Notes under the pieces: generated by a model
What the model was told of the DNA's origin: nothing
Database searches by the model: none
The model's input: the letters and a program-made list of their open reading frames with translations, nothing else
Program-made: the position numbers and the translations under genes
Shown here: positions 9,554 to 45,369 of the stretch, in pieces
How positions within the stretch are numbered: the first letter of the stretch is position 1
Layout of the letters: each line of letters opens with the position of its first letter
From: Heterotrichella gracilis
Taxonomy: Eukaryota > Sar > Xanthophyceae > Tribonematales > Xanthonemataceae
Reading direction: 5' to 3'
Length of the DNA stretch: 64,000 nucleotides
NCBI GenBank assembly: GCA_032358255.1
Contig: JAULBX010011100.1
Span: 248,001 to 312,000, forward strand

Positions 9554-12500
9554 TCATTGAGTCCCACTGCTGCCCTGCCCACCGCCCTCCTTAGCGCCAG
9601 GCGGAACCTCCTGCGCCACCATCCCCGCAAACCTCGACCTAGGGTTGAGCAGCAGCTCGTGCAGGCCCCCCTCCTCCGCCACCCTCCCGCCCTCCATCAC
9701 CACCACCCGCTCACACCCCATGATGGCCTCCAGGCGGTGCGCGATGGTGAGGGTGGTGGCAGAGGCCAGGTGCAGCTTGAGCACTGCGTGTATGGTGGCG
9801 GCGGTGGCAGGGTCGACTGCTGCTGTTGCTTCATCCAGTACCACCAGGCAGGGGGACTTTAGCAGGATGCGCGCCAGGCACAGGAGCTGCTGCTGACCTA
9901 CAAGGTGTGCATATTTTTGCATAAAAACAACAAATATAGGAAAAAGCATATATTCTACTAAAAAGGCGCAGGAGCTGCTGCTGACCTGCAATGGGAGACA
10001 GAAGGCGCAACTTAATCATAACGCTACGCTGGTTCCATGCATGTAACAAACTAATCTACGCTGCTTGGGACAGGCGGCTCGGTTGCCAGGCCACCGTACA
10101 CCGCCTGCCACACGTGCCTACAACGGGAACAATGGGTGGGTATGCGCCAGGCATGGCACAGGGGGCGTGTGTGAATCCATTTACTGGCATGACCAGGGGA
10201 CACCATTGGCCACATGGGAGGGGAAGCATGCGGCAGCCCACCTGGAGCTGCATGCATCGGAAACATCAGAGGGTGCTTGAACAGGCCCGCACCCCTCTTC
10301 CCCAGTGGCATTGACAAACCCCAAACCCTACACAATACCCTGCTCCACCCAGCTCTGGACAGGCCCGCAAGTCCGTTCCTCCAGCCTCAAACCCAGACCC
10401 TAAACCCTAAAAAATACCCTAATCCACCCACCTCTGGACGGGCCTGCGCCCCCTTCTCCCAGCCTCAGGGACAGGCAGCTGGCCTGTGAAGGCAAAGGCA
10501 TGACTCAAACCCAGACCCTAAACCCTACAAAATACCCTGCTCCACTCACCTCTGGACAGGCCCGCGCCCCCCTCCCCCAGCCTCAGCGATAGCAGCTGGC
10601 CAGTGAAGGCGGATGCGCGTGGGTCAGTGGCCGCGTCCCCCTCCTCCCCCCACTCCCACGCCATCATCTGCCAGATGCTGGTGGAGGAGGTGGGGCGGCG
10701 GCCGCCGGAGGGGCTGGTGGAGGTGTGGCGCTCATCCGCAGGGTGGGCGGTGCCCACGCGGTCATAGGGGAGGAAACCTGGAGGGCAGATGTTTGCAGGG
10801 TGAGCTATAGCGATGATTGGAAGTCCTCAATCTGAGAGGAGAGAGAACAAATGCAAGGGTACCCGTAGCTGTAACAAGGATAGTATGCAAGGGGGATATG
10901 ATTGCAATGAAGTAATGCAGTGGCCTGTATTTGACCACCCACAGGTCAAATGATGGCTAGAAACATCTGCCCTTCCATGACGCCATTTTCCCTTTCCCAT
11001 CCCCGCACCTGAGCGCCCCGATCCCCGCTTGGGCGATAGCGATGGGGTGTGTGACCTGGCCGCGCTGCCCCCCCCATGCGCCACCTCCCGCGGTTTGGAC
11101 ACCGCCCTCGGGTGCGGCGCGTGGGGGCGACCGGCTGGCACCGGAGTGTATGACTGCCCCCTCCCCCCTCCCTCCCCTGCGTGGGCTTCACCATTCGGTG
11201 CCCCTTGCAGGGTACTGCCACCCCCTCCCTTGTGGGGATTTGGTGGCTGGGGCAGGGATCCCGAGCTAGCAGAAGCCAGGGTGGCTGTGAGGGCCGACCC
11301 CTGCACTGGTTTGCGGGCTGGTGGCGTGCTGGCGGTGGTGTGGGGGCGGGGGTGCGAGGGGGGGTTGAACCCCACAGCCACCGCCGACCCCGAGGCGCTG
11401 GTGAGGTGCTGCGTGGGTGGTGGGGGGTGGGGGGAGGTGCCTGAACCACTGGCTGTGGCCACATGGGGTGGAGGGTGGGGTGGGGGTGCCCCCAGCCTGC
11501 CCCCTCCAGTGGGGATGGTGGCACCTGGGGGTGGCGGGTGGGTGCTGGTGTGCGGCACGGGTGGGTGGTGGGGCGCCACCGGCGGCAGGTGGCTGTGGGC
11601 GGTGGGGCGAGGGGGGGTGAAGCGCGGGGAGGCCCGGAGGTGGGGCGACAGCGGGGGCTTGGCAGGGTCATGGAACTGGCGCGCGTGGGGTATGGCGATG
11701 AGGGGTGAGGTGCCAGGGCGAGGAGAGCCCATACCATAGGAGGAGGGAGGGGGAGAGCCTGTGGGACATGGAACACACACATCTCATTCCTGCTTACCCT
11801 TGAGCCAAAACCCTCAAAGTGAATACTAACCCAGCGCTCACCATACCACTAGCAAGAGGATTGGTATACGTAATCTCATTTTGAGCAGCCCACGCACCAC
11901 ATGTCATCTTTGCACCGAAACAGCAGGTAACATGTTGCTGGACAGGGGCACATACCGATGCTGCATGCTGCATTGTTAAACACTGCATGGCGCACCTGCA
12001 ATGGTTGCTGCATGCATGTGCCCCGGTGAGCTGGCCACGGCTGGCATGGGTGCTTGGTGACCACTCAGCTGACGGGCATGGTCCTGCGGGGGCAGGGGGC
12101 AGGTGCTGAGTCAGCATGGGCTGTTCTCTCAAGTCCCAGAATTTACCAGGAAGAAAGGAAGGGAACGCACAAAGGCAAAGTTAGCGGGCCACTGGCTCAC
12201 ACCAGGGCACCATAACCAGCCACAACCGCTGGTCAAGCACAGGCCTTAGCAATGCCAATGCCCCCAGATCACAGTCAGGTCTGAAACAAACCAGGTCATT
12301 CCAGCGTCGACTCCCGTCACAAATCTTTCCACTGCATCCATCCACCTTCAATTACTTCCCCACTCACCCCGCTGATCTTCCCCCTTGAAAGGCAGATGGC
12401 CAGCAGCACGTCCCATAGCTGCACCTTCTTCAGCACACCAATCATGTCGCGGTCGCTGTAGCGCTCCTCGGGGTCTAGGTTATCGCGGATGGTGCCGGCA

Positions 12501-15500
12501 AACAGGAAGGGCTCCTGGGGCACCACGCCCACACCCCGACGCAGGTCATGCAGACGCACCTGGCGCACATAAATTAATTAGATGTAAATAATAGAAAGCA
12601 GGAAAAATTAAAATACAGAATCCTGGAAGTAAAATGGAAGGTATGTGTTTTGTGATACCTCTTTATGTTTCTAGTTATGATACTTCTTTATTTTTCTAGT
12701 CCTGTACAATCTTGTACACCAACAACGTATGCACCTTGTCACCAAGAATGAGGACATATTCTGAGAAAGATATGGAGTGAGAGCGTCCCCTCCCTCCTGG
12801 TCCCCACCTGGCGCACGTCGTATCCGTCTATCCGCAGAGAGCCCTCCGATATCTCCGCCATGCGCAGGAGGGCAGACACCAGGCTGCTCTTGCCGGCACC
12901 TGGCACAGGCATGCACGGGGGTAAAGACAGGCACGGACACAGGCACATATCCATGGGGACGTGACACATGTGCTGGACGCCCGGCATGTATTGGGTCCGC
13001 GGTGATGCTGCATGTGGCTACGGAATGACAGTAAGCGTGAAGGGCTGCAGCGCCATGGGCGTCCTCACCGCCCCAAGCGCAGACACCACCCGTGCTCTTA
13101 CAACCCCACCATGACATGTGCACACCCCACACACCACCACCACCACCACCACCTGGCGCACCCCCCCCACACCATCACCCGCACAGTCGTGTACCTGTGC
13201 ACATTGCATATGCTACCCCCCTCCCCCCTCCTGCCTCCCGCCCACTCCCCACCACCAGCGCACCTGTTCTGCCACAGATGCCCACCGCCTGTCCCGGCAG
13301 GATGTTGAGGTTCACGTCATGCAGCGCCCAGGGACCCCCCGGCACATAGCGCATGTGCACGCCCCGATACACCACTCGCCCTGCCACAGGCACCCACCCA
13401 TGCAGCTGCTGGGAGGAGGGCGCGAGCTCTTGGAGCAGGGGGACACCCTCGGTAAGGGTTTCCGGCTGCGGGGCACAACCACGGGGCAGGTGAGGGATGT
13501 CGGTGCAGCTGCAGTAAGGTTGTCAATGGCCCTCGCCAGCAAGCACGCATTGCATCCTAACCGCAAGGTCTTTCCTTGTCCAACATTCTGTCTACTTATT
13601 GCTGTACCTCTCCCATCTACCAACGTTCCACCAAGGGCTGTAACCTGGCGCATGCATCTCATTTCACCCGCCCCCGCCCACCTGCCCACACCCCCCATGC
13701 ACCTGGAACCCCCCACCCTGCACAATCAAACCATCCTCCACCACACCACACCCACCTGCGGCTTCAGTTGCGTGTACTGCCGCACCCTCTCCACCGCCAC
13801 CATCTCCTGCTCAGTCTCAGCAGAGGAGGTGAGCAGGCCGCTGAGCATGCCGGTGATGGGCAGGGCGTAAGACAGGCTCAAACCAACCAAGCCTGCATTT
13901 CGTAGAAGAACAGTTGCCAAATGGCCCATTGCGACATAAATTACATTGTAGACCATTGTAAAACACAGAAACAAACAGAAACCAGGATGTAAGAAGGGAG
14001 ATAAAGGAAAACTCGTGGCATATTCGAATCACTCTTTTGCACCATAGGCCCCTGCCCCAATCAGCAGACCCTGCCCCCTCAACCCCCCTCCTCACCTGGC
14101 GCCATCACCCCCCTTGACAGCACCTCCGGCAGCAGGTTGAGGTGATCGGCCAGCGCCAGCGCACCCACCAGCGCCACCACCACCGCTGCAAGCAGCTGCA
14201 GGCGCAGCGCCAGCCACTGGGAGGCCGCCAGGCTGGCAAGGGAGGCGCGCTGCAGGGCCGCCATGTGGCACAGGTGGCTGCGCATGAAGTGGGGCTGGGC
14301 GGCAAAGGCCCTGCGACAAGTGGAGATTCTCCGATGGGGATTATCAAATGGGGATTTCCTGATGATGGTACATGCGGGAGTTGCGTGCGGAACTTCTCAT
14401 GTGCCAAAGGTAGTTGCGCATGGAGTGGGGCTGAGCCGCAAAGGCCCAACAGTGCAGAATGTGGGGGGCTCTTTGATGCATTCAAATGATATATGTGGGC
14501 TTTCTACGTTGCTCCATGTCTCAACTGTGATGCAAGGGGCACAGCGACATGAGCGCCGCATGGGATGCATCCACCCATAAGCATGTATGATCTGCTGCTG
14601 CCCAAGCACATGATAACCCCATCTGGCTACCGAACGATGGTGCAGTTTGTCAACCCCCCATCACCGCCACCGCATTAGTGACGGGTGGGCACGCGTGGGA
14701 GCCCCCCTCACACCGCACCACACATCACACATGGGTGATCCACCCAGTTAGGATGCAAGCGAGGGAGGCCCTGCACACCTGATGGTTGCAGCTCCGCCCA
14801 GCACCTCGTTGAAGGTTGCGTACACAGGCGACTTGGCCACGCTCTCAAGGCGCCGCAACTCCCTTGATGACTGCTGGTAGTACGCCTGTGCCAGGCAGGA
14901 ATTGCAAATCTGCGTTATTTTAGGTCATAGTACATACTTTTCTGACCATTTTTGCAATGTTGGTTTTGGTGTGTGGCGGCATGTAAATGATCGTTAACAA
15001 TAAACAGGATTTGGTATGACAAAGGCACATGGCATGCACTGACTATCGGTGCATGCACACGCCCTCCGGCATGCATATAGCTGTAGCTCAAACCAGGGGT
15101 CAGGGGTTAGGGATTGAATGCCGCGAAAAATTCTGGATATCTAGCGGGAACGTCAGACAAGCGCAAGGGTTCAAACTTTCAGTCCGGGGTAGATTACCTG
15201 GATGCGCCTGTACACAAAGATGAGAGGCAAAAAGCTGAGCGCCAGCAGCGGTTGCGAGTAGCACAGCACAAACGCCACCCCCATCAAGGACGCCATCATG
15301 GCAAGGCAGATGTTGAGGACGAAGGGAAGCGAGTCGTCGATTGTGGCCACATCTGACGAAAAGCGGTTGAGTATGCGGCCTGCAAGAGTGTGGCGGCTGT
15401 CAATTTTAATGGCAGATGCGGAAGCGGCTGTTGGTAGAAGGACATGGAATGACAGGTGGCCCGTCATGGGAAGCGGCCAGGTCGTTCATCAATCGCCCAT

Positions 15501-18500
15501 AGCACATGCAGTGACTCGACCTGGTACAGACAGCACGATTGCCAATACATGTACTATTATACTATACAATCGTTATATATATGATTATACAATATATTAT
15601 TATTACCGGTACAGACAGCATGATTGCCAATGTGGTATTCTGCAGGCTCACCAGAAGGAGTAGTGTCAAAGAAGGCCATAGGGCTGTCCAGTATGGCTTG
15701 AAGCAGGCGCTGGTGGATGCGCTTGGCAGCAGTCAACCCTCCCTTGGCAAACGCAAAAGCCCGTACCTGCACCACAGGGAGTACAGTTGACACCAAGCCT
15801 ACACAATGCACAGCAGCAGCAGCGCATTCACTGAAGACTCCAAAATATTAATCTAACATTATATTGATGTTACTTATATATAATAAATGTGATGTAATCA
15901 TGATACAAATCGGCAAGGTGTGCATGCTTGTGTAAATGGCGTGCGTCCTTGGACCATGCTTGTTTGGTCATTTTCCTGGCGCCTTGGCACCAGCCGTGCA
16001 GACTATAGTCCTGCTGGGGCCAAGGCGCCAGGGGTAACGCCAAACAAGCCTGGCCAAAGATAGGCCCTCCATTTGCCCAAGCATGCATACGTTGGGTCAT
16101 TGGTTGCGTGTGTCCACCTTACTTAAATAGTTTCAAGCACTCCAGCAGTCCAGCCAACAGACAAAGTCCTATCGTGGCCCTGTTCATTCCATTTGCCAAG
16201 TTGCACTTACCAGTGTGAAAACCGAGTTTGCCACCGCGATCCCCAGCAGCACCCCCAGGTAGAACCCTAGCCCAGGGTCTTCGTTCTTCACATGCCTGCC
16301 AGGCCCCCAGTTGCCACCCACCAGCTCCCCACCAGCCAGCAGCAGCCTGTGGCGCCTGCTACCACCAGCCACTCGACCACCCACCAACGCCCCACCGAGG
16401 GTTCCCGCTCCCTCCTCACTCGCGTGCCTGCTACCGGTGGCGTTGCCAGCAGCAGCAGCAGCATGCGGGATCGGCATGAGGCACTGGGCCAAGCCGTCAA
16501 CCACGCCAGGCTGGCACACCTGCTGCAGGCTCCACAGGAGCGCCCGCTGGTTGGCTGAGGCTGAGGGTTGCCCCAGGTGGGCATCATACGCACTGGGAGG
16601 CGCGGCGCCATAGTGGCTTTGTGTGGTGCCATGTGGAGGCGGCGCTGTGCTGGGCGTGGGTGCGCTGTCGTTGTGGTTGTTGAACTCCATCTGCTTGGTC
16701 ACCCAGTGCGACAGCCACAGGTCGTTGGCATTGCGGCTGGCCTGCGTGCAGGATGAGGTACTGCACTTAGTGCCAAATGGATAGTGGTCTACAACTCCTA
16801 ATGGGTATCTAACGCAGGAACCTAGTGTAGATGATCCAGCAGCATGAACAAGTATCCAACACACAATGACGGCAGCATGCACCGTACTCCATCAACAGGA
16901 TTAAAACTTCAGAGAAAGGATGTAACACGGTCTGTGGGTAGAATGCAGCCTTGTCCACAATGCGCAACCTTGTCCCTACCTGCATGAGGCTATATAATTT
17001 TATATTTCTAGCATGCCATAGATATACCCCCCCCACCCCCCCCTTCCCTCCCCACACCCTTACGCCTACTAACATCTACATTACCCTTGCCACAATGCAC
17101 GGCCTTGACCCTATCTGCATGAGCACCAGGCTGATGAGGATGGTCGCAGTAAGCAGCAACCCAGTCTTTCCTCAAGGGTAATGATAGTGGGCTAGAAAAG
17201 CACAATAAGGAAATGTTTGTCTTGTTCTAAAACGAAAATATACAGGACTATATTATCCCTGCCGCCCAACTATTATCTTCACTGCCCATTGCACGGGCTT
17301 GTCCCTACCTGCATGAGCACCAGGCTGATGAGGATGAGCGCAGTGAGCAGCAGCCCAGTGGCCCGCATGTAGGAGGCGTACACACCGCCCTTCACATGGC
17401 CCTGCTCCCGAACCTCCTCCTCTTCGTGGATGGCACCGGAACTGCCAAGCCCTGTTGGCTCCGTCTCAGCCTTGGATAGCGCATGCCCGGGGTCAGGGGC
17501 TTGTGAGGCGCGCGCTTCACTCTGCGATCCAGGAAGGGCCAGTCAGATGGGTTGATCACAGAGGTATAGACCAGGGCCACAGGGACGATCACAATTGATC
17601 ACAGAGGTATGAATCAGCGCCACAACAACGATCTCAGAGGTACGGATCAGGGCCACATGTAAGATCCTCAATTTCCACCACACTCCCAAAACCGTTCCCA
17701 GATATTCACATCCAAAGGAGCCATGCGTGAGACCAAGGCCGCCCAGTGCGCACAAACCTCAACCCCTAAACCTATTGCTGCTTCCTGGCTAGCAGTCAGG
17801 CGCAGCGGCTCCCCAATGTATGTGATGCGCCCCTTGTGCAGCTTCACCACCAGGTCTGCCCGGTCAGCGCACTGCGCTGAGTGTGTGCACACCACACGGG
17901 TTTTGTGCTGCAGCAGGGGCCCACACACCACGTGCTCCAACACCCAGGCTGCCACGTGGGGGTCCAGGGGAGCAAAGACATCATCCAGGAGGTAGATGTC
18001 CTTGTCCTGCACAGTCAACCAGGTAACAGTTGAAGATACAACGCAGTTAGATATAAGTTGCAGCTAAAATGAAGCATTACCCTTGCACCCAGTGCCGTAC
18101 AGCAATCCATCTCAAAGCCTAGCTTGAGCAATTTGCCGGCAATGGATGGACGTTGCATAGCAAAGACGGCGAGCAGCCAAACATTACCTGGTACACAGCC
18201 CTTGCAAGCGCCAGCCTGGCCCGCTGCCCCCCTGACAGCGTTGCCCCCCTGTCGCCAATGAGCGTGTTGTCCCCCCCTTCCATTTGTGCCAGGTCATGGT
18301 CCAGGGCACATGCCTGGATCACATCCCCGTACCTTCTCGCGTCGTACGCCTCCCCCAGCAGAATGTTGTCCCTGGCAGAAAAGGGAACGTTGAGCTGAAT
18401 GGTAAGGACAGGTGGCACGGGATCCATACTTAATCGGATGTGTCGTCATGCCGACGAAAGAGGACAGGCCATGAGGTTTACATGCTTCCCATGGCCAAAC

Positions 18501-22555: not shown

Positions 22556-24435
22556 TCACGAGAACGGGAATGCAACGTTGGTGTAATGTAGCAAATAGAG
22601 GTAGGAGGCCAGCACGTACAAAAATGAACCAAAACCATAGCCAATGCTTTCCTGGAGCAAGTATGCATGTGCAGGCACAATGTCTTGAAGGAAAAGAAAC
22701 ATGCCACTCATCGTAAAGCCGATGCTGCCCCAAAAATAGCACAGGGCACCCCAGAAAGCCAGACTTCTCCTTTGCATAGCAGTCAGGGGCACCAAACCTG
22801 CACAGGGTGGGGGTTTTATTATCTGCTCTGGTCTCTGCTGCTTCGCCAGACCAACAGGCATGCGCTTTGAAGGCAATTCGACAAATGATCATGCACTGAC
22901 CACCTGCAGGACATAGAGTTGAATGTGCAATGCAAATGCATCAATAATGCACAGGTCAATCGCCGCACCTCTCCAGTAGCTGCCGGTGCCATCCACAATG
23001 TACAGATAGAACCCTAGAAGGAACCCTACACCACACCACAGGTACTGCGCCCACACCATCCATCTGGTGAGGGCTCCAGAGGCGCTGTCAGCAATGCTCA
23101 ACACCACCTGGGTGGTTTGCCCAACCAACAAGGCCACCGCACCCGAGAAGCAGCACAGCGCACCCCACCAAGGCAGCTTGCGAGGATGGACACCAAACCA
23201 CTGGTACCTGCAAAAGCCGATGCTTGTGTGAACAGTGTGCAGATGCCAGCAACCACACAGTGATGAGGACGACAACAGAAAAGAGAGGAATCGAAGACAA
23301 AGGCCAAAGGCGTACACAGGGCAGCATAGCACAACAATATTTCACTTGCCGTGGAGTACTGTGCGGGCAAATTTCATGCGTTATTTACAGCCTTGTTTAT
23401 ACACTATTACGCCCGTAACACAGCAATTATTCATACACTTTTCACGGTAAAAGCCATTACTTCGCACTGCGACTGCTTCATGTGCATGATGAAAAGGCTT
23501 GCCTGGGTTTCTGCCCCATCCGCCCATTTTGATGCCACATCTTCAAAAGTGCATTGTAATCTGAGTTGACTGCCTCTGGTATCATGAGGCCGCAGGAAGG
23601 TATAAAGAACACCAGTGTGGCAAGCAAGGAGGGATACACTACCAGGAGATTGTATCTGCAGAACCACCCCCTGGAATCTTGGTATACCTGCCACAGTCCA
23701 CACACATTGAGACAAATAGTGAATGGACGCATGGTGATAAGACAGATAGTGAATCGGAAACAGAGCACCAGACTTGCTGAGCATTAAGCAATCAACAGCT
23801 CACCAGCCAAATTAGCTTCATGATACGCTGCATGCAACATGTGCTGCATACAAAGCTGTTTAACAATACACTCCAAGTGACGTCATGCCAAACCTACCCA
23901 TGGGAGCACTTCTACGATCCCCGCGTACAAGTAGATTGTGGATCCCAACAAGAAAGCGTAAACGATCCAAAACGAGATGGCATGATGGACCTCAGTGTAG
24001 CACCTGCAAACAAATCAGACTACAATTGGCAATGAAGCATGGGGGGCATCAGGAGGACTGTAATATATCACTGGGTAATATATTACAGTCTTCCTGGTGG
24101 TATCTTCACAAATCAGTGATTTTGGACGATCGGTAATAACATTTCATGGCCTGTCAACATCGACGCTGGCTGCATCACACATGGGAAACTGGTAGCAATG
24201 AAAAGAAGCAAAAGCACCATCACCATATAAGCAAAGGGCGATGATACCCAATTACTCCTAGAATCTCAGCTTGCGTGCATGCTTGCAATGAAGGGTACCT
24301 GCTGGGTTGCAGCCACATCCACCAGTCAAAATCGCGAAAGGAGGGCTTGGGTAGTGCAACCTCCAGGCTTGATCGAGGCCCGTGGTGAAGAGGTTCAAAG
24401 GATCGGGCTGAGTCCAGTGTGCGCTCAAAGGGCAT
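22556..24435 (-). CDS. Multi-pass membrane protein, perhaps YrhK-like
   Basis: Five exons, 24435-24299, 24003-23898, 23687-23503, 23207-22969 and 22797-22556, join in frame to 302 residues. The intron after 23503 has a GC donor (CAG|GCAAGC). The protein has about 46 polar N-terminal residues and then roughly six hydrophobic segments. Repeated elements of the type W-(G/A)-(A)-L-C-x-F-x-G-(S/A) occur, for example FWGALCYFWGSIGF near residue 237 and WWGALCCFSGAV near 151, which suggests internal duplication of a two-helix unit. The pattern recalls the YrhK-like domain of bacterial and algal membrane proteins, but I cannot confirm this by eye. No catalytic residues are evident. It ends one hydrophobic stretch after the last helix. 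Exon structure is well supported; function is unknown. Confidence 0.65.
24052..24098. repeat. Intronic hairpin with an AT-rich stem
   Basis: GACTGTAATATAT and ATATATTACAGTC form a perfect 13-bp inverted repeat with a short loop, extended by AGGA/TCCT outside. It lies in intron 1 of the membrane-protein gene. Confidence 0.8.
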
Positions 24436-30201: not shown

Positions 30202-33200
30202 ATGAAGCGTGCCGGGGAGACCCGCGCTGTTCCATCCCACAAGCTACTGTTTGTGGATATCCTGCGCCTAGCCACCTTCAGTGCGGAGCATGGGGAGATA
30301 AACGAGGCAGCCTTGTATGTGGAGGGCAATGTCATCTCCTGGGTGGGGAAGACATCCGAGGTCCCGGAGGGTGAGGCCTGACTGCCTGCTTGACACCCTG
30401 GCATGCCCTCCCATGCCACGCCCCCTGCTCTGCCCCCAGCCCTGGCTGCTATGCCCTAAAGCCTAGACCCTGCCACCTCGCGGGGTGTAGGTGCGGTACT
30501 CAGCTGCTTAGGCGGGTGCAGGGGCTACTCTTGCCTTGCCTTGTGGGCCACTCAGCCAACTCTAGACACAGCCAGCCCTAGTCACGGCCAAAGCTATTCA
30601 TCACACGTGTGGCAAGCAACAGGTGTCATCGGGGTCCTTGATCAATGCCTTTCTTTAAACCCCCTAACTTCTGAAACCTGTCTCCTTGCTGCAGAGTACC
30701 GGGCGGCTGCAGACGAGGTGGTTTCCCTCAAGGGCAGGGTGGTGACGCCCGGGCTGGTCAACACGCACCACCACATGTTCCAGAGCCTCACCCGCTGCGT
30801 GGCACAGGTGACCCTCTCACAAGCATAACCTCCACAGTAATGCTGAAGCACCGTGTGTTGGTGTACATGACCAGTGTGTGCAAACCGTATGGATTTGCTT
30901 GTTGCCGCGTCAGCATTTCGAGCACTTTCCTGCTTGACTTTGCATGACAAATTCAGATGGCGGCTGATGCTCGCTGCTGCCGCTGCAGGACTCGGAGCTG
31001 TTTGGATGGTTGACCACGCTTTACCCCGCGTGGGAGCAGTTGTCGGTGCGTGCTGAATGGCTCGACCCTACTGCTTGGATGTGACATGCAGAGGCATCAC
31101 GATCTCCGCAGACAAAAGACAGCACGCTCATGCAGCAGGCCATTGGGGGATAATCATATGCCATCATGTGCCTTGTGCTGTTACCCCCCCACAACGCCCC
31201 CACATGATTGCTCACTTGTTGCACCACCTTCTTTCGTCTAAAATTTCATTCATTATAAATTCCCGCACGCTCGCAGCGCAAAAAATCGTGTGGCGAGAGT
31301 AGAATGCATTGCTCGATTTTATGTAATTTTTTTCTAATTTATCACATCCATGCCAGGGCGAGGACGTGTATACTTCCTCCAAGCTGGCCATGGCTGAGCT
31401 CATCCTGTCGGGCTGCACATGCACCAGCGACCACCTGTACCTGTACCCAAACGACGTCACGCTGGACGACACGATACGCGCCGCACGCGACATCGGCATG
31501 CGCTTCCACCCAACGCGCGGTGCGATGAGCCTGGGCCAGAGCAAAGGTGCGGGGCAGGAGCGGGGCACTGCTTAGGGTTTTTGGTTAAGGGTTCTGGGTT
31601 TAGGCTTCGGGGTTGAGCCTGGGCCAGAGCAACAGTGCGGGGCAGGGCACTGCTTAGGGTTTAGGTGCAAAGGTGCGGCGCGACCCCCACGTTGATGTAA
31701 TGTTGATCACATGGAGGCTTTGATCATTTGCAATGGGGCAATCCTGTCGGCATTTAACGGGCTGATACATGCCGCAATCTCCAGGGGCACGTGAACATGA
31801 ATATAATGTCACTGAGTGCCCCCCCTCCTGTCCAGAATTCAATTGCAAGTGCGTGCACAATCACGTGCAGCAAATGCCGCCATCTCTCCCCACTTATTTC
31901 ACTCACCTGCCGTCCCCCTCCATCAGGCGGCCTGCCCCCCAACAGCATCTGCAAGGACGAGCCCTCACCTTTGAACACCCCAAATCCCAAACCCTAAACC
32001 CTACATCATTTACAGGCGGCCTGCCCCCCAACAGCATCTGCGAGGAGGAGCCTCAACCCTAGAAAACCCTAACTCAAAACCCTGCACCTCAAACCCTAAA
32101 CCCTACTTCATTCCCATTGCAGGCGGCCTGCCCCCTGACAGCATCTGCGAGGAGGAGCCCGAGTGCCTGGAGGACATGCGCCGCTGCATCGAGGAGTTCC
32201 ACGACCCCAAGCCCTTCTCGATGCTGCGCATGTCGCTGGCGCCCTGCGCGCCATTCTGCGTTACAGATGACCTCATGCGGGCCGCGGCCAAGCTGGCTCG
32301 CGAGTACCCCGGCGTGCGGCTGCACACGCACCTTGCTGAGAACCAAGAGGACATTGTGTATTCCAAGGAGTACTACGGCTGCCGGCCAGGGGAGTACATC
32401 AAGTGAGTGACATGGGGAGGGGGAGGGGTGTTGGGTTTCATGAAATAAGACGCGGGGGTTTGATATGTGTTTACCGGCATTGACACGTTGCCCTGGTGAG
32501 GATTGCGGGGATTGATGAAAAGGGGATGGGGGAGGAGGACCTTGAAAGATCCCACAACATGAGCTCAACAACAGGAATTGGGGGATGTCTGGAGGTTCTG
32601 GGGGGCGTGGTTGATACATTGGCAGGTTGAATTGGGTGGGGTTGGATATGGGTATCGCTGTGGGATACCGTTGGTAAGCACCGCGCTGGTGTGGTACATG
32701 CTGTTCTCCTGTTGCTTGTTGCTGATGAGAGCATGTGTTGTGCGCCAGGGGCGTGGGCTGGGACAAGGACGACTGCTGGTTTGCGCACTGCGTGATGCTG
32801 GACCACAAGGAGATGAAGGAGTTTGCAGCCAACGGCATCGGCATCGCGCACTGCCCCTCTTCCAACCTGCGGCTGGCGTCAGGTGCGCAGCAGCACAGAT
32901 TCTTAATCCTAAAATCCTAGATGTGTACATGGCACCAGGTGTGCAGCCCAGACAGTGCTGTCACCCAGAATCATGTGCATGTTGCCTCCTGACCCACGCT
33001 TTGCCCCTGTCCTGCCAGTCGAATGTGCATGCGCATTGCACCTGTTGCTGTGGCATCAAATCGCGTGTGCCCTACCGTGATCGGGCACTGCAAGGACGGT
33101 CAGCGTCCCCAAGTGACAAGCTAGTCATGACCTGCTAACATGCAACACTTGTGCTGATTGCCACCTGGCCCCGCAGGCATCTGCCCTGTGCGAAACATGC

Positions 33201-34092
33201 TTGACAACGGCATGAACGTGGGTCTGGGGGTGGATGGCAGCGCATCGTCGGACGCAGGCCACCTACTCATGGAGGCGCGCATGTCCATGCTGCTGCAGCG
33301 CGCGGCAGGTGAGCAAGGGAAAACCCTACACCCTGCATCCACAATCCCAAATCCTGCTTTCCTTTGTCCATGCTGCGGCAGCATGGGGCAGGTGGTAGGT
33401 AGGCGCCTGGCAACCGCATGTAGTTTGAATGCACTAGGCCTCATCACCAGCTATCTGGGCAAAGTACTGCCTCCCAGGTGCTGCTGCCTGTCATGACCCG
33501 CGCTTTTTACTGCAGGAAACCCTAAGGGTTTGAGTGCCAGGGAGGCGCTGCGGATCGCCATCAAAGGGGGCGCCAAGAACCTGGGCCGCACCGACATCGG
33601 CGAGATTGCGCCCGGCTTCGCCGCCGACTTTGTCGCGTGGCGCACCGACACCGTCAACTTTGCGGGTGGCCTGTACGACCCAGTGGCTGCGCTGGTACTG
33701 TGCACTGCGGGTGCTGACTCAGCAGACTGGGTGCTCATCAATGGCGATGTGGTGGTGAAGAATGGCAAGTTCACGACCATCGATGTGGAGGTATGGCCAG
33801 CGCCTGGATGTGTTTTGGAGTGGTGTGTTGTTGGGCATTGGCTATTCTGGGGCATGGCGCTGTCGTAGGGTTCAGGGTTCTTCTGGACCGATGCATTGTT
33901 CAGGGTTATGGGGTCTCTGCACTGCCTGGTCTTGCTTATTTGCTAATGAAGATTGAAGTATTACCAAACAACCAAATTACTCGTATTTGCTCCTTGGTTG
34001 TGCAGGAGCTGGTGACTGAGCACAACAAGCGGTCTGCCCGCATCTGCTCATACATCCCAGACTACGTCATCCCAACCGATCAGTTGTCCTGA
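30202..34092 (+). CDS. Amidohydrolase, probable 8-oxoguanine deaminase
   Basis: A metal-dependent deaminase of the AtzA/TrzN/guanine-deaminase superfamily. The best match in memory is bacterial 8-oxoguanine deaminase, which converts 8-oxoguanine to urate with release of ammonia. Nine exons, 30202-30370, 30695-30807, 30989-31045, 31357-31546, 32123-32402, 32749-32882, 33177-33308, 33516-33790 and 34006-34092, join to 478 residues. Motifs in order are the metal site [12 protein letters not shown], the lid [48 protein letters not shown] (third metal His), WFAHCVMLD (fourth His), [14 protein letters not shown], and [17 protein letters not shown] with the metal Asp. SSDHLYL and TRGAMSLG are typical of the 8-oxoguanine deaminase group. 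No transit peptide is evident. Substrate is by family resemblance only. Confidence 0.87.
31527..31662 (+). repeat. Duplicated donor end of amidohydrolase exon 4
   Basis: The exon 4 end and the following intron start (GAGCCTGGGCCAGAGCAA, then TGCGGGGCAG, then GGGCACTGCTTAGGGTTT) occur at 31527-31580 and again at 31615-31662. TTTAGGG-like sequence lies between the copies and at the end of each. The second copy has lost the AAAGGT donor. Confidence 0.88.
31926..32161 (+). repeat. Triplicated acceptor side of amidohydrolase exon 5
   Basis: Three copies of the exon 5 start (GGCGGCCTGCCCCC...CAGCATCTGC...GAG) begin at about 31926, 32014 and 32122, each preceded by a CAG. Only the last leads into the long exon. 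Between copies lie runs such as AAACCCTAAACCCTA. Reading through either upstream copy meets a stop shortly after the copied piece, so they can serve only as decoys. Confidence 0.9.
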
Positions 34093-35359: not shown

Positions 35360-38300
35360 ATGCAGTTCAGGGGTCCCTCCACTGCTATCGCCCACTGCAC
35401 CCAGCAAACGCCGGGGTCACAGGTTTGCCACGAAGCACATACCCCAGCACATCACGCCACCGTTGGTGTGCCATGTGGCCGCCCGCGAACCCACACAGGT
35501 ATGCCACCCTTCGCGGTTGCAGACCACATTGCTGCAAACATGTGTACACCACCCCTTGGCGAGGTAAGCAACACCTCCTGCACTGTAGGCCACGCAGCAG
35601 CCTTTGCGGTGCGAAGACTGGCCCAGTGCAGGTCTTTCAATTGAAGAGGTAACTAAATATCCAGCGTGGTTAAATGATTACGCTTGGGTAGCAAAGCCTC
35701 TGTCTGACAGCCACCAGATAAATGAGTAGGGTAGGGTTGGAAGAGCAGGCACTTGTATTTTCATTTCCCCTCCTATCTGCCTGCGTAGGCTCACACAATT
35801 CCGCGGTCCTGGTATGTGAGCCCTTCAATGCAAGACATCGAGGAGGAGCTGGTGTTCAAAAGAAACTGGCAGGTATCCATGAAGCCAAGCAGTCCCTTGC
35901 TGCCCGAGACGGCAAGGTTATTGACTTACGTGAACAGCAACCGACAGCAAACCACAAAGAACAGCAAGCACAAACGAAGACAGTTGTCATTGAATTTGTG
36001 CTTTCTGTTGTTGGTAGTCTGCTGTCGTGTGCTGTTGTCTTCAGTCAATAATACTGCAGTTACTGCATGGGTTTGCCTGCAAGTGAACCGCAAACCCTAA
36101 ACCCTGAACCCTAATCGGGGGGTTGCTGACGCGTGGCTGTCTGGGTTGGCTGCAGGCGGTGGGCACCTCTATTGGATTGCAAGAAGCAGGGGACTACTTC
36201 ACGGGGCTATTCATGGAGGTGCCCTACGTGGTGTGCAGGGACGGCAGCGGGGCCTTGCAAGCCTTCTACAATGTGCGTCAAACTCACAGCAATTCTCTTG
36301 CTCTTGCATACCATTTCAGCGGTTTTTTAAAGGCTGTAGCCAGGCTACAGCCAGGTGTCTGCGCATGCTGCTCAAGCAGCAAATGCTAAAATGTAGCGGT
36401 TTTCTTTTGTTTTGCTAATACCAGTGGGGGGGCGTTGGCACTGCGCCACCGTTCAATAAGTTGTCAGCGTGTGGTAATATGTTGGGTGCTTGCAGGTTTG
36501 TCCACACCATGCGGGGCAGGTTGCCTTTGGTGAAGGGCGCAAGTCGCAATTCACCTGCTGCTACCATGGGTGGACTTTTGGTGAGCCCAGATATTCCACA
36601 GATTACACAGATTTGCACAAATTATGCATTGAATGTTGGCATTCTGCTTCACTCTAGGCAGGCAAGGTTGCAAGCGGGGCTTTGTGGTACTGGATTGACC
36701 CGGGGGTTTGTTGCTTTGTGCAGGTTTGCAGGGGGATTTGCGCCGCGCCCCAGGGATTGAGGGTATCAAGCATTTCGACCCCTCGAAATTCTGCCTCACC
36801 CCCATCCCCCTCCAAAGTTTTGGCCCCTTCATCTTCCTGTGGTTTGGCAGGTGTGATGTGAATTTTCTTTGCCTTCAGAGCGCGATTTGCACTTTGCATG
36901 CCTCCCCGGGACCGGGAAATCGCCCCGCCCGGGAGTTGTCTATGGCGCTTCGGCGTTGCGGCAGGCTTTCATCATTATTCTGTTATTGTGTGATGTGTGC
37001 ATGACACTGGCACACCCACACACATCGAGGCATGAAACATACCACGTGCGGCTCACCACCACAATCAGAACAGCTATCGGATAGATATGGATATGTAATA
37101 TGGACACATATATACCAGTCACAAATTGAGCATATTGCCGTTTTGTGTATGGTGCTATCTGTGCCCTAATGGCCCATTGTGATTTGCAGCACCCCTCCAA
37201 CGCATGATATTGAGAGCTGGCTTGGGGAAGGTGGCGCCGCGGTTGCTGCGGCGGGCATCAATGAGCCCTCGCTGGTGTCAGTGACAAGGGTGGAGTATGA
37301 TGTGAACTGCAATTGGAAGGTCTACCTGGACAACTATTTGGTGCGCAATTTGCATTTGGTGCTCTGGAAAATTTGCCATGGTTGTTTGCCATGTATGGAT
37401 GCCCTATAAGGCCAATACCAGCAAATGCATGGAGAAATGCAGCATAATCATGGAGAGGACCGCAGCAATGGAAATCATCAGAGGTTTCATCTACGGATGG
37501 CATTCTCTGGAATGTTCACTAGTGTGCATTTGTGCCTAACGGTTCCTGGGTTTTTATTCGACTTATCTGGTGTGACCTGTGCCTTGCCTTGTCCCACAGG
37601 ATGGCGGCTACCACGTGGCGGTTGTGCACCCCGCCCTCACCAACGCGCTTGACATGGACACCTACCACAGCAAGGTGTATGAGGTGGTCAATGTGCAGAC
37701 AAGCGAGGCAGCCAAGGCAGATGCGGTGCCAAATGACTTTGACATGCGCACGGCAGGCAAGTGTTCGCTCGCATGCATGCATGTCCGCATCAGTGCTATT
37801 GGCAGGTGGAGAATGCCTACCTTTTAGACACCTAGGCGCAGCACTCTCAAAGCAGGAACTTGGTTTCAATTGCACCCTTGCATGAGAAGGCACCAGGGCA
37901 GTGCATTCAACACATGCCGGCATGCCAGCCGCTGTGACCTGATATGGGTATTACGCTGCGGCAATCTGCATTATACAAGCTGTGATTAATGCTGGCGCTT
38001 TTTATATCTGATGCCACACATGGGCCCATGGATCTAGTCTCATGGGCATGCGATGAAAATGAGCATCAATCCTCATGCAGCACAACGCTGTTTACTTGCT
38101 ATGCCCCGCACCTGCAGGCAAGCCGCCCTTCTACGCCTGGCTCTACCCAAATTTCATGGTCAACATCTACGGGGAAGGACTCATGGAGATTAACATCGTG
38201 CTGCCGTTGGCCGCCAACCGCTGCCGGGTGGTCTACGATTTCTTCGCCCCCCTTGCCATGGTGGAAGGCAACACTGACTACATACAGGAGAGCTTAAACT

Positions 38301-39015
38301 GCAGCGATGTGGTCCAGCGGGAGGATATGGCCATTTGCGATGTGGTGCAGCGCAACCTGGCCTGCGGGGTGTATCAAGCGGGCAGGTAGGGAGCTGGTGT
38401 GGCTGCTGCAAAGTCATTCCTGCTGTGCCGGTCTTGAATTCTGCTTCACAATTGCAGATAGGGCATGCATTGCGTGCATGCATTGCGTGCATGCGTTAAG
38501 AATCCCACGTGCATGCATGCATTGCTTGCGTGCATTAATCCCACGTGCATGTTCGATCTTTTGTACCAAGGCGAACCATAAACCCTAAAACCCCTTGCAT
38601 GCCATATGGTGTACGGTAGCTTCAAGCTTGTGCACTGATGCTATGCCACATACATCACATCGCATCATACACATCTGCTGCATTCAAGGACCCTGGGCAT
38701 CCATATGCACATAGGTAGTGCATTCCAGCAACACGGCGAGATAAGCAGTCGGCCTTGAGCATGCTGCGCCGAGCAGTTTGGCATGCACTCTTATGATGTG
38801 CACTTGATAGCACATCATCACAACCATCATCCGCCACGATGCATCGGCATCCTGGTTCTTGAGGCTGTGTGCAGGTACTTAAGATGAGAATCGTAGTAAT
38901 TTATTCATTTCAATAATTATTCGTGCGCAGGTATGCCCCACGCTGGGAGACACCCATGTTCCACTTCCACCAGCTGCTGCACAGGGACCTGTGCCAGCGC
39001 AGCGCAGACCGCTAG
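35360..39015 (+). CDS. Choline monooxygenase-like Rieske oxygenase
   Basis: The first step of glycine betaine synthesis (choline to betaine aldehyde) in plants, in the plastid stroma. Nine exons, 35360-35563, 35789-35872, 36156-36272, 36496-36580, 36724-36850, 37190-37340, 37600-37756, 38118-38385 and 38931-39015, join to 425 residues (spinach enzyme about 439). The first exon is Ser/Thr/His/Pro-rich and may be a transit peptide. Landmarks are AHTIPRSWYVSPS, the Rieske cluster CPHHAGQ plus CCYHGWTFG, NWKVYLDNYLDGGYHVAVVH (mononuclear iron site), YPNFMVNIYGEG, and the end YAPRWETPMFHFHQLLHRDL. The intron after exon 7 has a GC donor (CAG|GCAAGT). The best match is to CMO; related quaternary-amine Rieske oxygenases cannot be excluded. 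The start codon choice is moderately sure. Confidence 0.86.
38463..38549. repeat. Tandem GCATGCATTGCGT repeat
   Basis: The 12-13 bp unit GCATGCATTGCGT is repeated two to three times, and a longer unit (ATCCCACGTGCATG) is repeated twice, in the last intron of the Rieske oxygenase gene. AAACCCTAAAACCCC follows. Confidence 0.75.
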
Positions 39016-40680: not shown

Positions 40681-43600
40681 ATGTACATCAGCGGCAAAGC
40701 CTCGGAGATCTTGACCCTGACCTTGCTGCCGGCTGGCGTCACGCAAGTGCGCTTCAGCCTGATGACACCAGGTGCGCGCATGTGGGCAGATGTGGGACCC
40801 CGGTCCACCCTGATCGCGAAGTTTCGCGAGACAGCATCGCCGCATTGCACGACGCACGCACCCTTCCGTTGATGCAGCCCTGCGCTTCTACTTAATTAAA
40901 CGCCTTGGACAACTGCAACCGCATATACATGACTAACTTCCGGTCATGATTATACAATCCCCTCGCTTGTTTGCTGCCTACCAAATGGGACATGTTTTTG
41001 CTTGCCTAGGGCTACTGAGCGAGCGCCCACTGAAGCCAGTGCCCCAGCTCAAGATGGTCTTCTCCAGCGCCCCAGCAGCCCCTTTGGAGGCCCACTCTGG
41101 CGCACCAGCAGCTCCCCAGAGGGCCTCCGCCTGCAGTTGTGCCAGCCAGAGCCCACCTCTCCACCACGTGCGCAGCGCTGTGATCATGGCCCCAACACCC
41201 TGCAGCTCTGGCAGCCCCAGCCTCGCCACCGACTGCCTGACCACCCTCCCACGGGCGAGATCCCAGCAGGCAGTCTCGGGCTTGAGCTTCAGCACTGCAG
41301 CAGCTCCACACAGCCCCCGCTCCCCCGAAGCCTTCACAGCCATAGTCACCAAGGCCTCAAACAGGGCCACCCCAAGGGTACCAAGCGACTTTTCTCCCTA
41401 CTTGAGCCCGCTTGTGAACATGCCGTTCCTGAACGAGGCCTCCCCGCGCATCACCAAGGCGATGGTGACTGACCATGGTCTGCCAGCCTGTGTGGTGGAC
41501 CTTCCTGACGCGCAGGCAGCTGCCAAGCTCCTGGAGAACATCTGCCTTGACGTCACCAAGCCCGCGTTTGCTGACGAGGTAACTTGGATATACAGCGACA
41601 ACACTGGCCTTGGGCATGTGTGGCATCTTGCCTCCTTGGCAATGTTAACTGTGCACTGAAGTCATGTCTCACAGTGGCCCTATCATGCTTGTTTGATTAA
41701 TATCAACCTTGAGCCTTATTGTAACCACCCACTCTGCGTGCAGCCCTTCATCTTCGATGAGAGCAAGTGGCACCATTATGGCGACATGGGCGGCCAAGGC
41801 CACCCCTATTCCCTCAGCCCCGTGCTGCCAATCCCCACCCTCAACATCGCCAACCAGCCCCAAGCCGCTCCCCAGAAACCCTTCACCAGCACCGGGTCCC
41901 AGAACAGCTGCATGAAAGAGGTCAGCGCCACAGGCGCAGGGTCCCAGTCCACCCCCGCAGCGTCTGAGCCCAGCCTCTACCTGCCCGCCACACAGCGGAA
42001 GGGCACAGGCACCAAGCCAGGGAGGCACGCCAGGAGCTGCAGCGGGGATGAAATCAGCTCCGCCGTCACCGCCACCCACAGGCGCAGCGCCATCACGTAC
42101 ACCCATCCCAGGGGCCGCAAGAGGAAGGCGACAGCCGCAACTCCAAGTGGTGCGCACCCTAAACCCTACACCATTGCCAACCCTAAACCCTAACCCTCTC
42201 ATAGCTGCAACTCTGCCACTGCGTGCTTTCTGTGCTCAATTGAGCCCCGTGTTTACCAACCTGTGCACGTTGTCAGCGCTTTCTTTATTAGGGAATTAGG
42301 GGTTAGGGTTTAGGGATTTCCACCCTCCATGCATATCTTGCTCCCACAGCCTGTAGATGCGCATCATCAGCAAGCTTCCATCCACGCCATCCCACCCATT
42401 GTTATCTTCCCCAACCAACGGTTCCCGCACATTTGTGTGCAGGCAGCATCCCCAAGCGCCAGACGCGCGCCAAGCCCCGCGTCAAGTACCACGATAGCGA
42501 TTACGATGATGAGGACTACATGGAAGATGAAGAGGATGACTCGGACAGCAACGAGGACTGCGTGGCCAAGCATGTGGCTGACACCATCGCTCGGGAGTCG
42601 GTCAGGGATGAGCAGGAGGTGGACATGCGCTGCACGGTGACTGCTGTCCCGGGGCTTGGTGAGGGTGAGACGCACATCTCCTCCTACAGCAAGGTCATCA
42701 AGGGGGCAAGCACCATGAGCGCCAAGGTGGGGAGGGCATGTGGGCGGTAGGCGGTGTGCTGGGGTGCATGCAAAGCTGGCGGGTGGCTGCCTTTTGATTG
42801 GAGGCCTTGCACAATTCTTTCTTGGGTCCCCACATGCCAAACCTTAAACCCTACACCCTAACCCTCACTCCTGCTGTCCCAACTCCAAGATATGCATGTC
42901 TCCCATCCACAACCCACAATAGTGGCCATGCAATAGACCAACCTTTCCCTCTTTGCTGCAGTCTTTGGCCATCTACGCTGCCAGCATCGGCGCCTCTGGT
43001 GTGCCATCGGATCTCGAGGAGGTGCTGACCATGCGCCTGGGCCAGGAGCCTGATGACATCATCGTGGAGGGTGACACCTGGCAGCCGGAGTCGCCAGACT
43101 CGCCCATGGCAATGTGCCTCCCGTGAGTGCCGCCCACCCATGTCCATGCGATCACATGGACCATGTGAATGATGATATGACATGACATGACCATGCAAGT
43201 GTGATCATGCTATTCGTTTTCCAAGGGCCTTGAAAACTGCAAACGCGCCATTGCATGCACTAACTGCTCACCAGCCCCTGTGACAGTCCCCCCCAATGTG
43301 CCACTCAATCACCCCATCTTAATCCCCCTCTGCAGCTTGAAGGACGGAGCCCTCCACAAGGCCCTAGGCAGCCACGTCACCCCCACCAAGGGTGCGCAGC
43401 CCGGCAGTGCCCTGGGGCTGTCAGCCATTGGCCGCAACGGCTCAGCCGCAGACCTCGACCCCCGCAGCGTGACCCCCGGCAGTCGTGGGCGGCGCATGGT
43501 ACGCCCCGCACATAGCAATTTGTTCACTGCTGGCGATGAGCTGAGCGAGGATGAGGACTTTGACGATCAGGATGACGAGGATGACGAAGGTATGCTCCTA

Positions 43601-45369
43601 GTTCATCTGATAATGTCTATATACCATCAGATTATGTTTTTAACTGCCCACTGCCATGTCATGTGCGTTTCTCAGGTGGAGTGCATTCCTCAATGGCCGC
43701 TTCTACCCAGTTTGCACCCCTGTACAGTTGTGAAGCGGTTGCCATGTTTTAGCTCTCCGTAAACCTGTTTACAATGCTGCGCCTGGCCATGCTCAGTAGC
43801 CGTGCATGTGGCTGTTGTACAACATAGCTGGCTTGGTACGCATGTGTAGTAATGTGGCGTGATTGGCGCGCTGGTGGTCAGACCATTCACCATTAGTATT
43901 TCTTACCCAGGGCAGTGGGGTGTGGCATGTTCCAGCTTACACAATATGTGACATGGCGTCATGTGGGTGCACCCTAGATTCTAAACCCTGATTCTTACAC
44001 CCTGTGACGTGGCACATGTGGGTGCAGATGATGACCGTGATGCAGGCGAGGGTGGTGAGGTGTGCAGCAACGGCGCCAGGGTCAAGCGCCGCAAGAACAC
44101 CAAGCACATCACCCTGGCATTCCTGGAGGAAGGGGGGTACTTTGACCTGCCAATCCAGGTGAGCCAGCCGGTGAACCCTAAACCCTAAAACTGACTAGTC
44201 CTGGTGTGTTGCGACATGTGGCTGACAGCACTTAGCAGTGGCAGTTGCAATTGTGCCTTTGCAGTAGCCGTGACCCAGGAGGATATATTTTCAACCCTGT
44301 TTTCAATGCTGTCATCGTACCGATGCTATCATTGTGCAGCAATTGCCAACCATCCCTGCGCTGTGTCTCCAACGCACTGCATTGCCATTACACATCTCGG
44401 CAATCGATTAGCAAATGATGAAATGCTCCCTCCTGCAGGATGCCGCCATCCGCCTCTCGGTGGGTGTGACCACGTTAAAGAAGATCTGCAGGTCCCAGGG
44501 AGTTGGCCGCTGGCCCTTCAGGAAGCGCAACAGCTTGGACAAGCTGATTGAGAAGACCAAGCAGTTCATGCCCGGCACGGACACCTCCAACACCGTGCAC
44601 CGCGAGATGTGCCTGCAGACGCTGGAGCAGGAGAGGAACATCCTCAAGGTGAGGCCGCTGTCAAAGGGTTTAAGCGTTTAGGGTTTAAGGTTTGGATTGT
44701 GGCACTGTGCCTGCAGACGCTGGAGCAGGAGAGGAACATCCTCAAGGTGAAGCCACTGCCGGGGCTGGCTTGTGTTACCACCTGGTGTTACTGTGATGCC
44801 ACCGCCAGCAATTTAGTATCAGTCATTTGAGGGGGACCAACGGTTGATGGTTCAATAAGAAGGAAATTGTGGGGGAAACCGCTTTTGTTGCCCAGTCTAC
44901 AAAATCCAGTGAAAATGCGTTCCTAATGTCTCAATACTGCCTCTGTATGCTTGCATGCACAAGACCCACAGCACTACCCACCACCTACCACTCATGATGC
45001 GCCCACCACTGGATACACAACATGATACATCACCAACCATTACCGTCACTTGGATGCATCACTTGCAAGTCCATGGACGCCGCACAGCAATCTACTGCCT
45101 CTCAGGTGAGGAAGGACAAGGACATCGATCCCGACATAAAAAAGTACCGCCAGCTTGTGTTCAAGATGAACTACAAGATCAAAAAGGTGCCCAAGAGCAA
45201 GAGGCCCAGGATGGGCGAGAACATCTCCAAATTCTCCCCCACAGGCTCGCAAACAGGCGCCACCGTTGCGTCAGTGCCAAAGCTAGGCGGCCCCTACCCT
45301 CAGCTTGCAAGCGCCAGCAGGCCAATACCCACACGCGTATCTTCACGCCGCATCCATGCCAACGCGTAG
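40681..45369 (+). CDS. RWP-RK domain transcription factor
   Basis: A plant and algal DNA-binding family (NLP/RKD/MID), often tied to nitrogen status or gamete identity. Nine exons, 40681-40771, 41010-41578, 41744-42149, 42443-42726, 42962-43122, 43336-43589, 44028-44158, 44439-44648 and 45106-45369, give 789 residues. An optional 30-base microexon (44717-44746) would add 10. The N-terminal 600 residues are low-complexity (Ala/Ser/Pro) with two strongly acidic runs (DSDYDDEDYMEDEEDD and EDEDFDDQDDEDDE) and basic patches (RGRKRK, VKRRKN). The RWP-RK domain sits near residues 617-665: HITLAFLEEGGYFDLPI, LSVGVTTLKKICRSQGVGRW and PFRKRNSLDKL, followed by a helical stretch. The motif reads RWPFRK. 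No GAF-like or PB1 domain is seen, so it is not a typical NLP. Confidence 0.88.
42157..42312. repeat. Telomere-like units in RWP-RK intron 3
   Basis: Directly after the donor of exon 3 come CACCCTAAACCCTACACC and CAACCCTAAACCCTAACCC. Further on, GGGGTTAGGGTTTAGGG runs in the opposite orientation. More units occur in later introns of the same gene (about 42842-42866, 43973-43990, 44172-44188). Confidence 0.85.
44611..44752 (+). repeat. Duplicated end of RWP-RK exon 8, candidate 30-bp microexon
   Basis: The exon 8 end and its donor (CCTGCAGACGCTGGAGCAGG...AACATCCTCAAGGTGA) occur at 44611-44653 and, essentially unchanged, at 44709-44752. Within the copy, CTGCAG now acts as an acceptor-like site, so AG|44717-44746|GT is a perfect 30-base in-frame exon encoding TLEQERNILK a second time. 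TTTAGGGTTTAAGG lies between the copies. Confidence 0.88.

Follow-up and report, generated by a model that had tools for sequence, protein, structure and literature searches.

Direct copies of exon edges and telomere-like inserts in the introns of a 64-kb Heterotrichella gracilis window as possible scars of staggered-break repair

Several introns in a 64-kb stretch of DNA from the xanthophycean Heterotrichella gracilis (contig JAULBX010011100.1, positions 248,001 to 312,000; the whole stretch is hereafter called the window) carry direct copies of the edges of their own exons, commonly with an insert between the copies and in several cases with telomere-like repeats in or around that insert. We interpret these junction echoes, at a probability of about 0.6, as scars left where staggered double-strand breaks were repaired with filler DNA that was sometimes telomeric. 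The window is eukaryotic nuclear DNA by its look, its genes are intron-rich, and it is the sole sequence basis of all results given here, taken from a single unplaced assembly. Three genes are central to the argument, namely those for an MRP/ABCC transporter, an amidohydrolase, and what we take to be an RWP-RK protein.

Direct copies of exon edges

Local direct repeats in the window lie about two orders of magnitude above those in shuffled sequence. Gapped self-BLAST, limited to direct pairs no more than 1 kb apart, yielded 18 rows scoring at least 36, whereas 30 dinucleotide shuffles averaged 0.13 such rows and never gave more than 2. An ungapped scan over offsets of 15-800 gave 27 rows at the same score; the average over 20 shuffles was 0.05, with no more than 1 in any of them. 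These 27 rows were grouped into 16 duplication loci. Rows below 36 in the ungapped scan were excluded, among them an exon-exon pair (60598/60673) that scores 34 ungapped and 52 gapped.

A self-trained hidden Markov model (HMM) predicts 12 genes and 87 introns in the window. Its models were corrected by hand in three places: the last ABCC intron was set to 9898-10549, the donor of RWP-RK intron 7 was placed at 44159, and a mini-exon at 44717-44746 was counted within RWP-RK intron 8. When the 60-bp edges of exons were compared with their own introns, 6 of 78 introns scored at least 34, which is the lowest score observed among those six, whereas mismatched introns predict 0.07. With dinucleotide-shuffled introns, the count was 0.15 at a score of at least 30. 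Introns that are shorter than 60 nt or lie at the window ends are excluded from the 78, as is the misread end of ABCC, and two of the hand-corrected introns are included. Six of 6,006 mismatched pairs also reached 34, but every one of these joins adjacent introns split by exons of 10-22 nt, and such matches are trivial because the 60-bp flank extends across the short exon into the neighboring intron. With exon edges in reverse-complement orientation, a single match reached 24 or more and none reached 26. Exon-edge copies are direct, not inverted, at close range, and each confirmed pair still scores at least 36 when telomere motifs are masked.

A sequence-only reading of this DNA had described such copies in five introns of the ABCC, amidohydrolase, and RWP-RK genes and had proposed aligning introns to their flanking exons beside a shuffled control. 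That alignment, run within the window as described above, recovered all five introns and added amidohydrolase intron 7. The reading was also right that two introns, the last of ABCC and the fourth of the amidohydrolase gene, hold copies of both the donor and the acceptor side. Its unit length of 50-120 bp has to be revised, as successive copies are instead offset by 79-195 bp.

The ABCC gene, on the minus strand, holds many of these loci. On the acceptor side of its last intron, a 28-bp piece at 9876-9903 recurs at 9964-9991 with 93% identity, and the two copies enclose a 60-bp AT-rich insert (25% guanine plus cytosine, GC). The donor side of the same intron (10278-10610) contains three to four copies, starting at 10278, 10315, 10386, and 10504, of a unit comprising the exon end, the donor, and a telomere-like tract (tracts at 10315, 10392, and 10510). 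Farther along, a 50-bp piece at 14262-14311 that is nearly all exonic and adjoins an acceptor is repeated at 14398-14447 (86% identical, 86-bp insert), and a donor-side exon edge at 17283-17359 has copies at 17088-17165 and 16949-16988, with inserts of 117 and 96 bp. One copy-insert-copy arrangement (15523-15631) is confined to an intron; its 24-bp copies are 96% identical and its 61-bp insert is AT-rich (18% GC). The ungapped scan also revealed a 33-43 bp unit in three diverged copies at 17552-17666, within an ABCC intron.

The remaining pairs to be described lie on the plus strand. A near-tandem duplication at 27248-27374 is confined to an intron (63 bp, 78% identical, 4-bp spacer). Intron 4 of the amidohydrolase gene carries on its donor side a 55-bp pair (31526-31580, copied at 31614-31662) around a 33-bp telomere-like insert, and on its acceptor side (31924-32160) three copies of the acceptor and exon start, with the acceptor itself at 32120-32160, the others at 31924 and 32013, and telomere-like tracts in between. 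At the donor side of intron 7, which was absent from the earlier list, a 30-bp piece (33282-33311) is copied at 33365-33394 with 87% identity, and the 53-bp insert includes a telomere-like tract. Finally, RWP-RK intron 8 contains a 53-bp pair (44608-44660 and 44706-44758) that is 96% identical and surrounds a 45-bp telomere-like insert. This last pair differs at 2 of 53 positions, with both differences among the 12 intronic positions and none among the 41 exonic ones, a weak hint from the alignment that both exonic copies may be under constraint.

Copy lengths range from 24 to 108 bp. Typical pairs of copy length and offset are 28/88, 50/136, 78/195, 53/98, 30/83, and 24/85 bp; copies are far shorter than offsets in most pairs, and these therefore are not plain tandem duplications. 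The copies are 33-117 bp apart in nine of the 13 alignments (copy-insert-copy) and 4-17 bp apart in the other four (near-tandem); the tandem genomic duplication that is a proposed route of intron gain would be head-to-tail, with no insert and with AGGT supplying both splice sites. Two of the inserts are strongly AT-rich. In a comparison of eight inserts with the window, the five non-telomeric ones matched only themselves, and the three telomeric ones matched only telomere-like stretches. The main pairs are 75-96% identical (one 20-bp sub-match in the 16949-17359 cluster reaches 100%), and given this span the events look spread in time.

Telomere-like repeats around the copies

When up to two mismatches are allowed, two-unit matches to TTTAGGG, presumably the telomere unit of this species, form 22 clusters, whereas 19 permuted heptamers with identical base composition form 1-10 clusters each. 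Of the 22 TTTAGGG clusters, 19 lie in introns and 3 between genes, and exons contain none; that the tracts are away from chromosome ends is likewise a presumption. The octamer AAACCCTA occurs 24 times, versus a shuffle mean of 0.97 (maximum 5). Its density in introns is 683 per Mb (19 in 27.8 kb on both strands), a figure inflated because redundant repeated copies are counted. Plant telo boxes reach densities per Mb of 150.7 in the introns of Arabidopsis and 72 in those of rice, and are densest in 5′ untranslated regions, at 680.3 and 311.5, respectively (PMC3022908). As in those plants, short AAACCCTA motifs are scattered through the window, and telomerase acting at free 3′ ends is the proposed origin there; the window differs in its intronic density, its multi-unit tracts, and its flanking duplications.

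The telomere-like surplus is associated with the copies. Duplication loci make up 4.5% of the non-exonic DNA but contain 5 of the 17 telomere-like loci (binomial P = 7e-4; circular shift P = 0.0018) and, counted from the other side, tracts lie between or within copies at 5 of the 16 duplication loci. With the tract itself removed, the flanks of 5 of the 17 telomere-like loci align directly at a score of at least 40, versus 2.15% of 4,000 random non-exonic positions. At the 44608 and 33282 loci, the tract is found in the insert only and lies outside the copies. As a control of the method, 32 IMG/VR stretches of unknown origin with telomere-like patterns were treated in the same way. Of the 72 clusters in them, 71 could be tested, and no flanks of these reached a score above 22.

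Some other tracts, all on the plus strand, stand alone. The RWP-RK intron at 42150-42442 has two (42154-42319), the first beginning 4 nt past the predicted donor; another RWP-RK intron has one at 42837-42864, which has a variant stretch in common with the insert at 44661-44705; and a further tract, at 44171-44192, begins 12 nt past the corrected donor of RWP-RK intron 7. No flanking copies were detected around any of these. Relative to the sense strand, the 19 intronic clusters comprise 10 C-type and 9 G-type and show no overall bias. For this reason, we dropped the idea that tract orientation serves splicing; three tracts on the donor side (10510, 31572, and 44670) share the G-type orientation but are too few to carry weight. 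Separately, the start of amidohydrolase exon 8 (33516-33535, gaaaccctaagggtttgagt) is telomere-like within coding sequence.

Staggered-break repair and its rivals

The process that we propose would begin with a break that leaves long staggered ends, probably 3′. If both overhangs were filled in, the overhang sequence would be present twice, and filler DNA captured between the ends before joining would produce the copy-insert-copy arrangement, with direct copies of about 24-108 bp. In several cases the filler would be telomere-type repeat, added by telomerase to exposed 3′ ends or copied from telomeric DNA, and otherwise it may sometimes be AT-rich DNA. Such events would probably strike anywhere and be retained in introns, in intergenic DNA, and at junction-spanning positions, where copies could persist because an intact junction is left in place and splicing removes the extra copy. 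Each event might lengthen an intron by roughly 80-200 bp. The copies, their direct orientation at exon edges, the inserts, and the telomere-like surplus around the copies are observed; that breaks were staggered and then filled in, where the filler came from, and that loci were filtered passively are steps that we infer.

Each ingredient of this process has a counterpart elsewhere, judging from the excerpts of the cited papers on which our comparisons are based. Fill-in of 3′ overhangs by CST-Pol alpha-primase is reported to yield small tandem duplications of 43-49 bp (PMC8355091). The copies in the window are similarly direct and overhang-sized, at tens of base pairs, as expected of fill-in and end joining, but the longest exceed the experimental range, and inserts of 33-117 bp separate 9 of 13 pairs here whereas the experimental duplications are tandem. 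Telomeric repeats are inserted at break sites in mammals, sometimes with a duplication of the flank that is ascribed to staggered breaks. Duplication accompanies 3 of 66 such loci in the horse, with deletion, addition, and duplication combined at another 2 of 66 (PMC7215372), and the corresponding counts are 6 of 130 loci in rodents and 4 of 25 in primates (PMC2246262). Duplication is thus a minority outcome in mammals; in the window it occurs at 5 of 17 loci, and the tracts are degenerate and dense. In our interpretation, a fill-in of the CST-Pol alpha-primase type and telomeric insertion act together here.

Several observations weigh against this interpretation. When up to three mismatches are allowed, TTTAGGG shows no surplus (31 clusters versus 18-42 for permuted heptamers), and 51 of 517 permuted heptamer matches at three mismatches (9.9%) fall within duplication loci versus 3.2% by coverage, although that excess is perhaps due to matches on degenerate telomere tracts. 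Flanking copies at a score of at least 40 are absent from 12 of the 17 telomere-like loci, and 11 of the 16 duplication loci have no tract. In Drosophila, according to the part of the report used here, direct repeats are no commoner at gained introns (19/77) than at conserved ones (26/100) (PMC3296678). The variant stretch common to the tracts at 44665-44702 and 42830-42865, which lie in different introns and opposite orientations, suggests either that one served as template for the other or that both derive from the same degenerate source; for that pair, fresh synthesis by telomerase fits less well than copying of a tract that already existed. At 31526-31662, a short telomere-like stretch forms the end of the copies, and in the clusters at 10278-10610 and 31924-32160 the tract belongs to the repeated unit and may therefore predate and cause the duplication. 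These two clusters, whose units are near-tandem (three of the four alignments have spacers of 4, 10, and 17 bp), speak for the main rival, according to which telomere-like tracts came first and, being fragile or replication-blocking on their G-rich strand, later provoked slippage or template switching that duplicated nearby sequence in tandem, with junction copies as by-products. We consider this unlikely, given that at 44608 and 33282 the tract lies between the copies and not in them, and that the loci lacking a tract count against it as well.

Another rival holds that exon/intron boundaries are themselves break hot spots, for example through R-loops or through G-rich donor ends that telomerase can extend. 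Of the 16 duplication loci, 8 are at a junction, 5 are intron-only, and 3 are intergenic. With corrected gene models, a junction is touched by 8 of the 13 genic loci versus 3.7-3.8 expected (P = 0.012-0.014), an excess that leaves room for targeting and so also belongs among the points against our interpretation; with uncorrected models and the 11 BLAST-derived loci, the count is 8 of 11 (P = 0.0017-0.012). Tract starts also cluster near donors, with 6 of 15 (after four redundant copies were dropped) within 25 nt versus 1.25 expected (P = 0.0006 at this post hoc threshold; P = 0.041 at 15 nt, 0.002 at 30 nt, and 0.022 at 50 nt), and this clustering is unexplained by passive filtering. Near acceptors, there is no excess of tracts. 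The junction excess, however, is no proof of targeting because exon-only insertions are purged and an exon-constrained copy decays slowly, and it may reflect survival and detectability instead. Given the modest P value, these possible biases, and the intron-only and intergenic loci, we set junction targeting aside as the main cause and judge it distinctly unlikely. From the earlier claim of a recurrent duplication process acting on exon/intron junctions, then, recurrent duplication in three genes stands, whereas the idea that it is directed to junctions does not fare well, since half of the loci are wholly intronic or intergenic. Introner-like or other transposable elements with target-site duplication would also give a copy-insert-copy arrangement, and one intron discussed below has a 12-bp in-register repeat. 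Yet the eight inserts have no sequence in common except the telomere motif and no terminal inverted repeats beyond the level of mismatched ends (best 15; mismatched maximum 22). Near-identical introns, which introners would place in numbers across a genome, were not seen within this window. Some introner families show target-site duplications of 3-9 bp and/or terminal inverted repeats in the part of the account consulted (PMC9860276), and the copies here far exceed those lengths, which makes such elements a very improbable source. An assembly artefact or chance similarity is scarcely credible: the assembly is single and unplaced, but the main pairs are diverged, their inserts are unrelated, and their scores are far above those of shuffles.

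Gene models, splice sites, and intron growth

Pfam named five of the seven proteins submitted, as Isy1, an amidohydrolase, a ring-hydroxylating oxygenase, an asparaginase, and a septin, and a PDB search identified the MRP/ABCC transporter. By the same kind of search, the amidohydrolase is of the 8-oxoguanine deaminase/triazine hydrolase kind, with residues 14-461 of 478 aligning to its best match, 7ww2 (E = 3.2e-152). The exon edges at its introns 4 and 7 are supported because this alignment is gap-free there. Kinesin, RWP-RK, and centrin are names that we assigned by reading translations and should be taken as presumptive. Similarly, the move of the RWP-RK intron-7 donor presumes a consensus for that family, and the ABCC acceptor at 9898 was placed by hand from the reading frame and a presumed motif, on the assumption that the region encodes the ABC signature. 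Two HMM exons of ABCC (10432-10483 and 10060-10117) were discarded as artefacts of the copies. A proline-rich open stretch of 250 codons at 11009-11758 is an ABCC exon by HMM prediction; the MRP1 alignment stretches bypass that part of the protein.

We take the 8-oxoguanine deaminase/triazine hydrolase chains to be bacterial. If the amidohydrolase gene (30202-34092) was acquired by transfer, then all eight of its predicted introns would be later gains, and the gene would be a good test case. In a search for relatives, neither centrin nor the amidohydrolase matched viral contigs, and centrin had three remote matches among genome contigs (39-63% in the best segment), which were set aside as providing no usable relative. 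Elsewhere in the window are imperfect long hairpins with arms 77-88% complementary, at 35909-36060 (66 nt), 15914-16094 (47 and 31 nt), 62526-62603 (33 nt), and 24047-24099 (25 nt), and these are possibly miniature inverted-repeat elements.

The sequence-only reading had also expected duplication to enlarge introns, to create decoy splice sites, and to generate new introns. Longer introns are borne out, and possible decoy sites are indicated by position weight matrix (PWM) scores. An ABCC donor copy scores 5.8 versus 6.5 for the donor taken as used, and the second copy in RWP-RK intron 8 has a putative acceptor (6.9) and donor (4.5) and is read by the HMM as an in-frame exon of 10 codons, the predicted mini-exon at 44717-44746. 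In the last ABCC intron, the copied acceptor scores 7.2 and beats the one taken as used (2.0), which is a weak point of the chosen splice reading; use of the copy would shift the frame by 88 nt. We also considered whether the acceptor copies in intron 4 of the amidohydrolase gene might act as cassette exons, but each of the two extra copies meets stops when read in the coding frame. The potato RdRp case, so far as the source consulted describes it, demonstrates that a duplicated exon/intron boundary can supply splice sites (PMC4974935). RWP-RK intron 8 looks similar at the level of sequence, whereas most copies in the window bear no sign of being new introns.

As for intron birth, one candidate emerged in place of a general trend. 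The ABCC intron at 12560-12807 (minus strand) has a perfect 12-bp direct repeat in register around AG/GT at donor and acceptor (GTGCGCCAG, with the boundary before GTG). It is the only such case among 82 introns (0.012 expected), and none of 6,000 mismatched pairs reached its score. Across the 82 introns, there is no overall excess of in-register donor-acceptor repeats (mean longest 4.79 versus 4.71 for mismatched pairs). Observed and expected counts are 4 versus 4.7 at lengths of at least 7, 2 versus 1.5 at 8, and 2 versus 0.44 at 9. Direct repeats were therefore rejected as a general signature of intron gain, with the 12-bp case alone standing out, and most introns here are not visibly of insertion origin. 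That case would fit an insertion with a target-site-type duplication, as in Daphnia pulex, whose neointrons carry direct repeats of the terminal bases of the adjacent exon at the far intron end, interpreted as footprints of staggered breaks (PMC4202315).

The Daphnia neointrons are also a precedent, in the portion of that report considered, for the junction-echo pattern, which the earlier reading did not know as a described genome-wide feature. They combine exon-end direct repeats with internal direct repeats and are attributed to the repair of staggered double-strand breaks, but their exon-shared repeats measure 4-12 bp and belong to recently gained introns (PMC4202315). In the window, the copies are 24-108 bp long, the introns are mostly without sign of recent gain, and some carry telomere-like inserts. 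The excerpts used of three algal papers contain no such pattern (PMC8226300, PMC12636532, PMC6549138), though the last mentions interstitial telomeric repeats in Chlamydomonas. The open-access literature, which leaves most subscription journals outside, likewise yielded in the parts consulted no account of telomere-repeat-associated exon-edge duplication or intron gain. Each ingredient is known, and it is the combination, the copy length, and the density that seem to be new.

The origin and growth of introns form an old open question for which few recent events are readable. A broader possibility, which we offer tentatively and regard as doubtful, is that staggered-break repair with telomere-repeat filler is a major force shaping introns in this genome, one that lengthens them, places decoy splice sites as well as mini-exons close to donors, and now and then gives rise to an intron, such that many introns would be partly fossil repair patches recognisable by their telomere repeats. 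If this is true, then long telomere-tagged repair scars would allow the lengthening of introns, the appearance of splice sites, and perhaps the birth of introns to be counted and dated directly, and these would be linked to one specific route of DNA repair.

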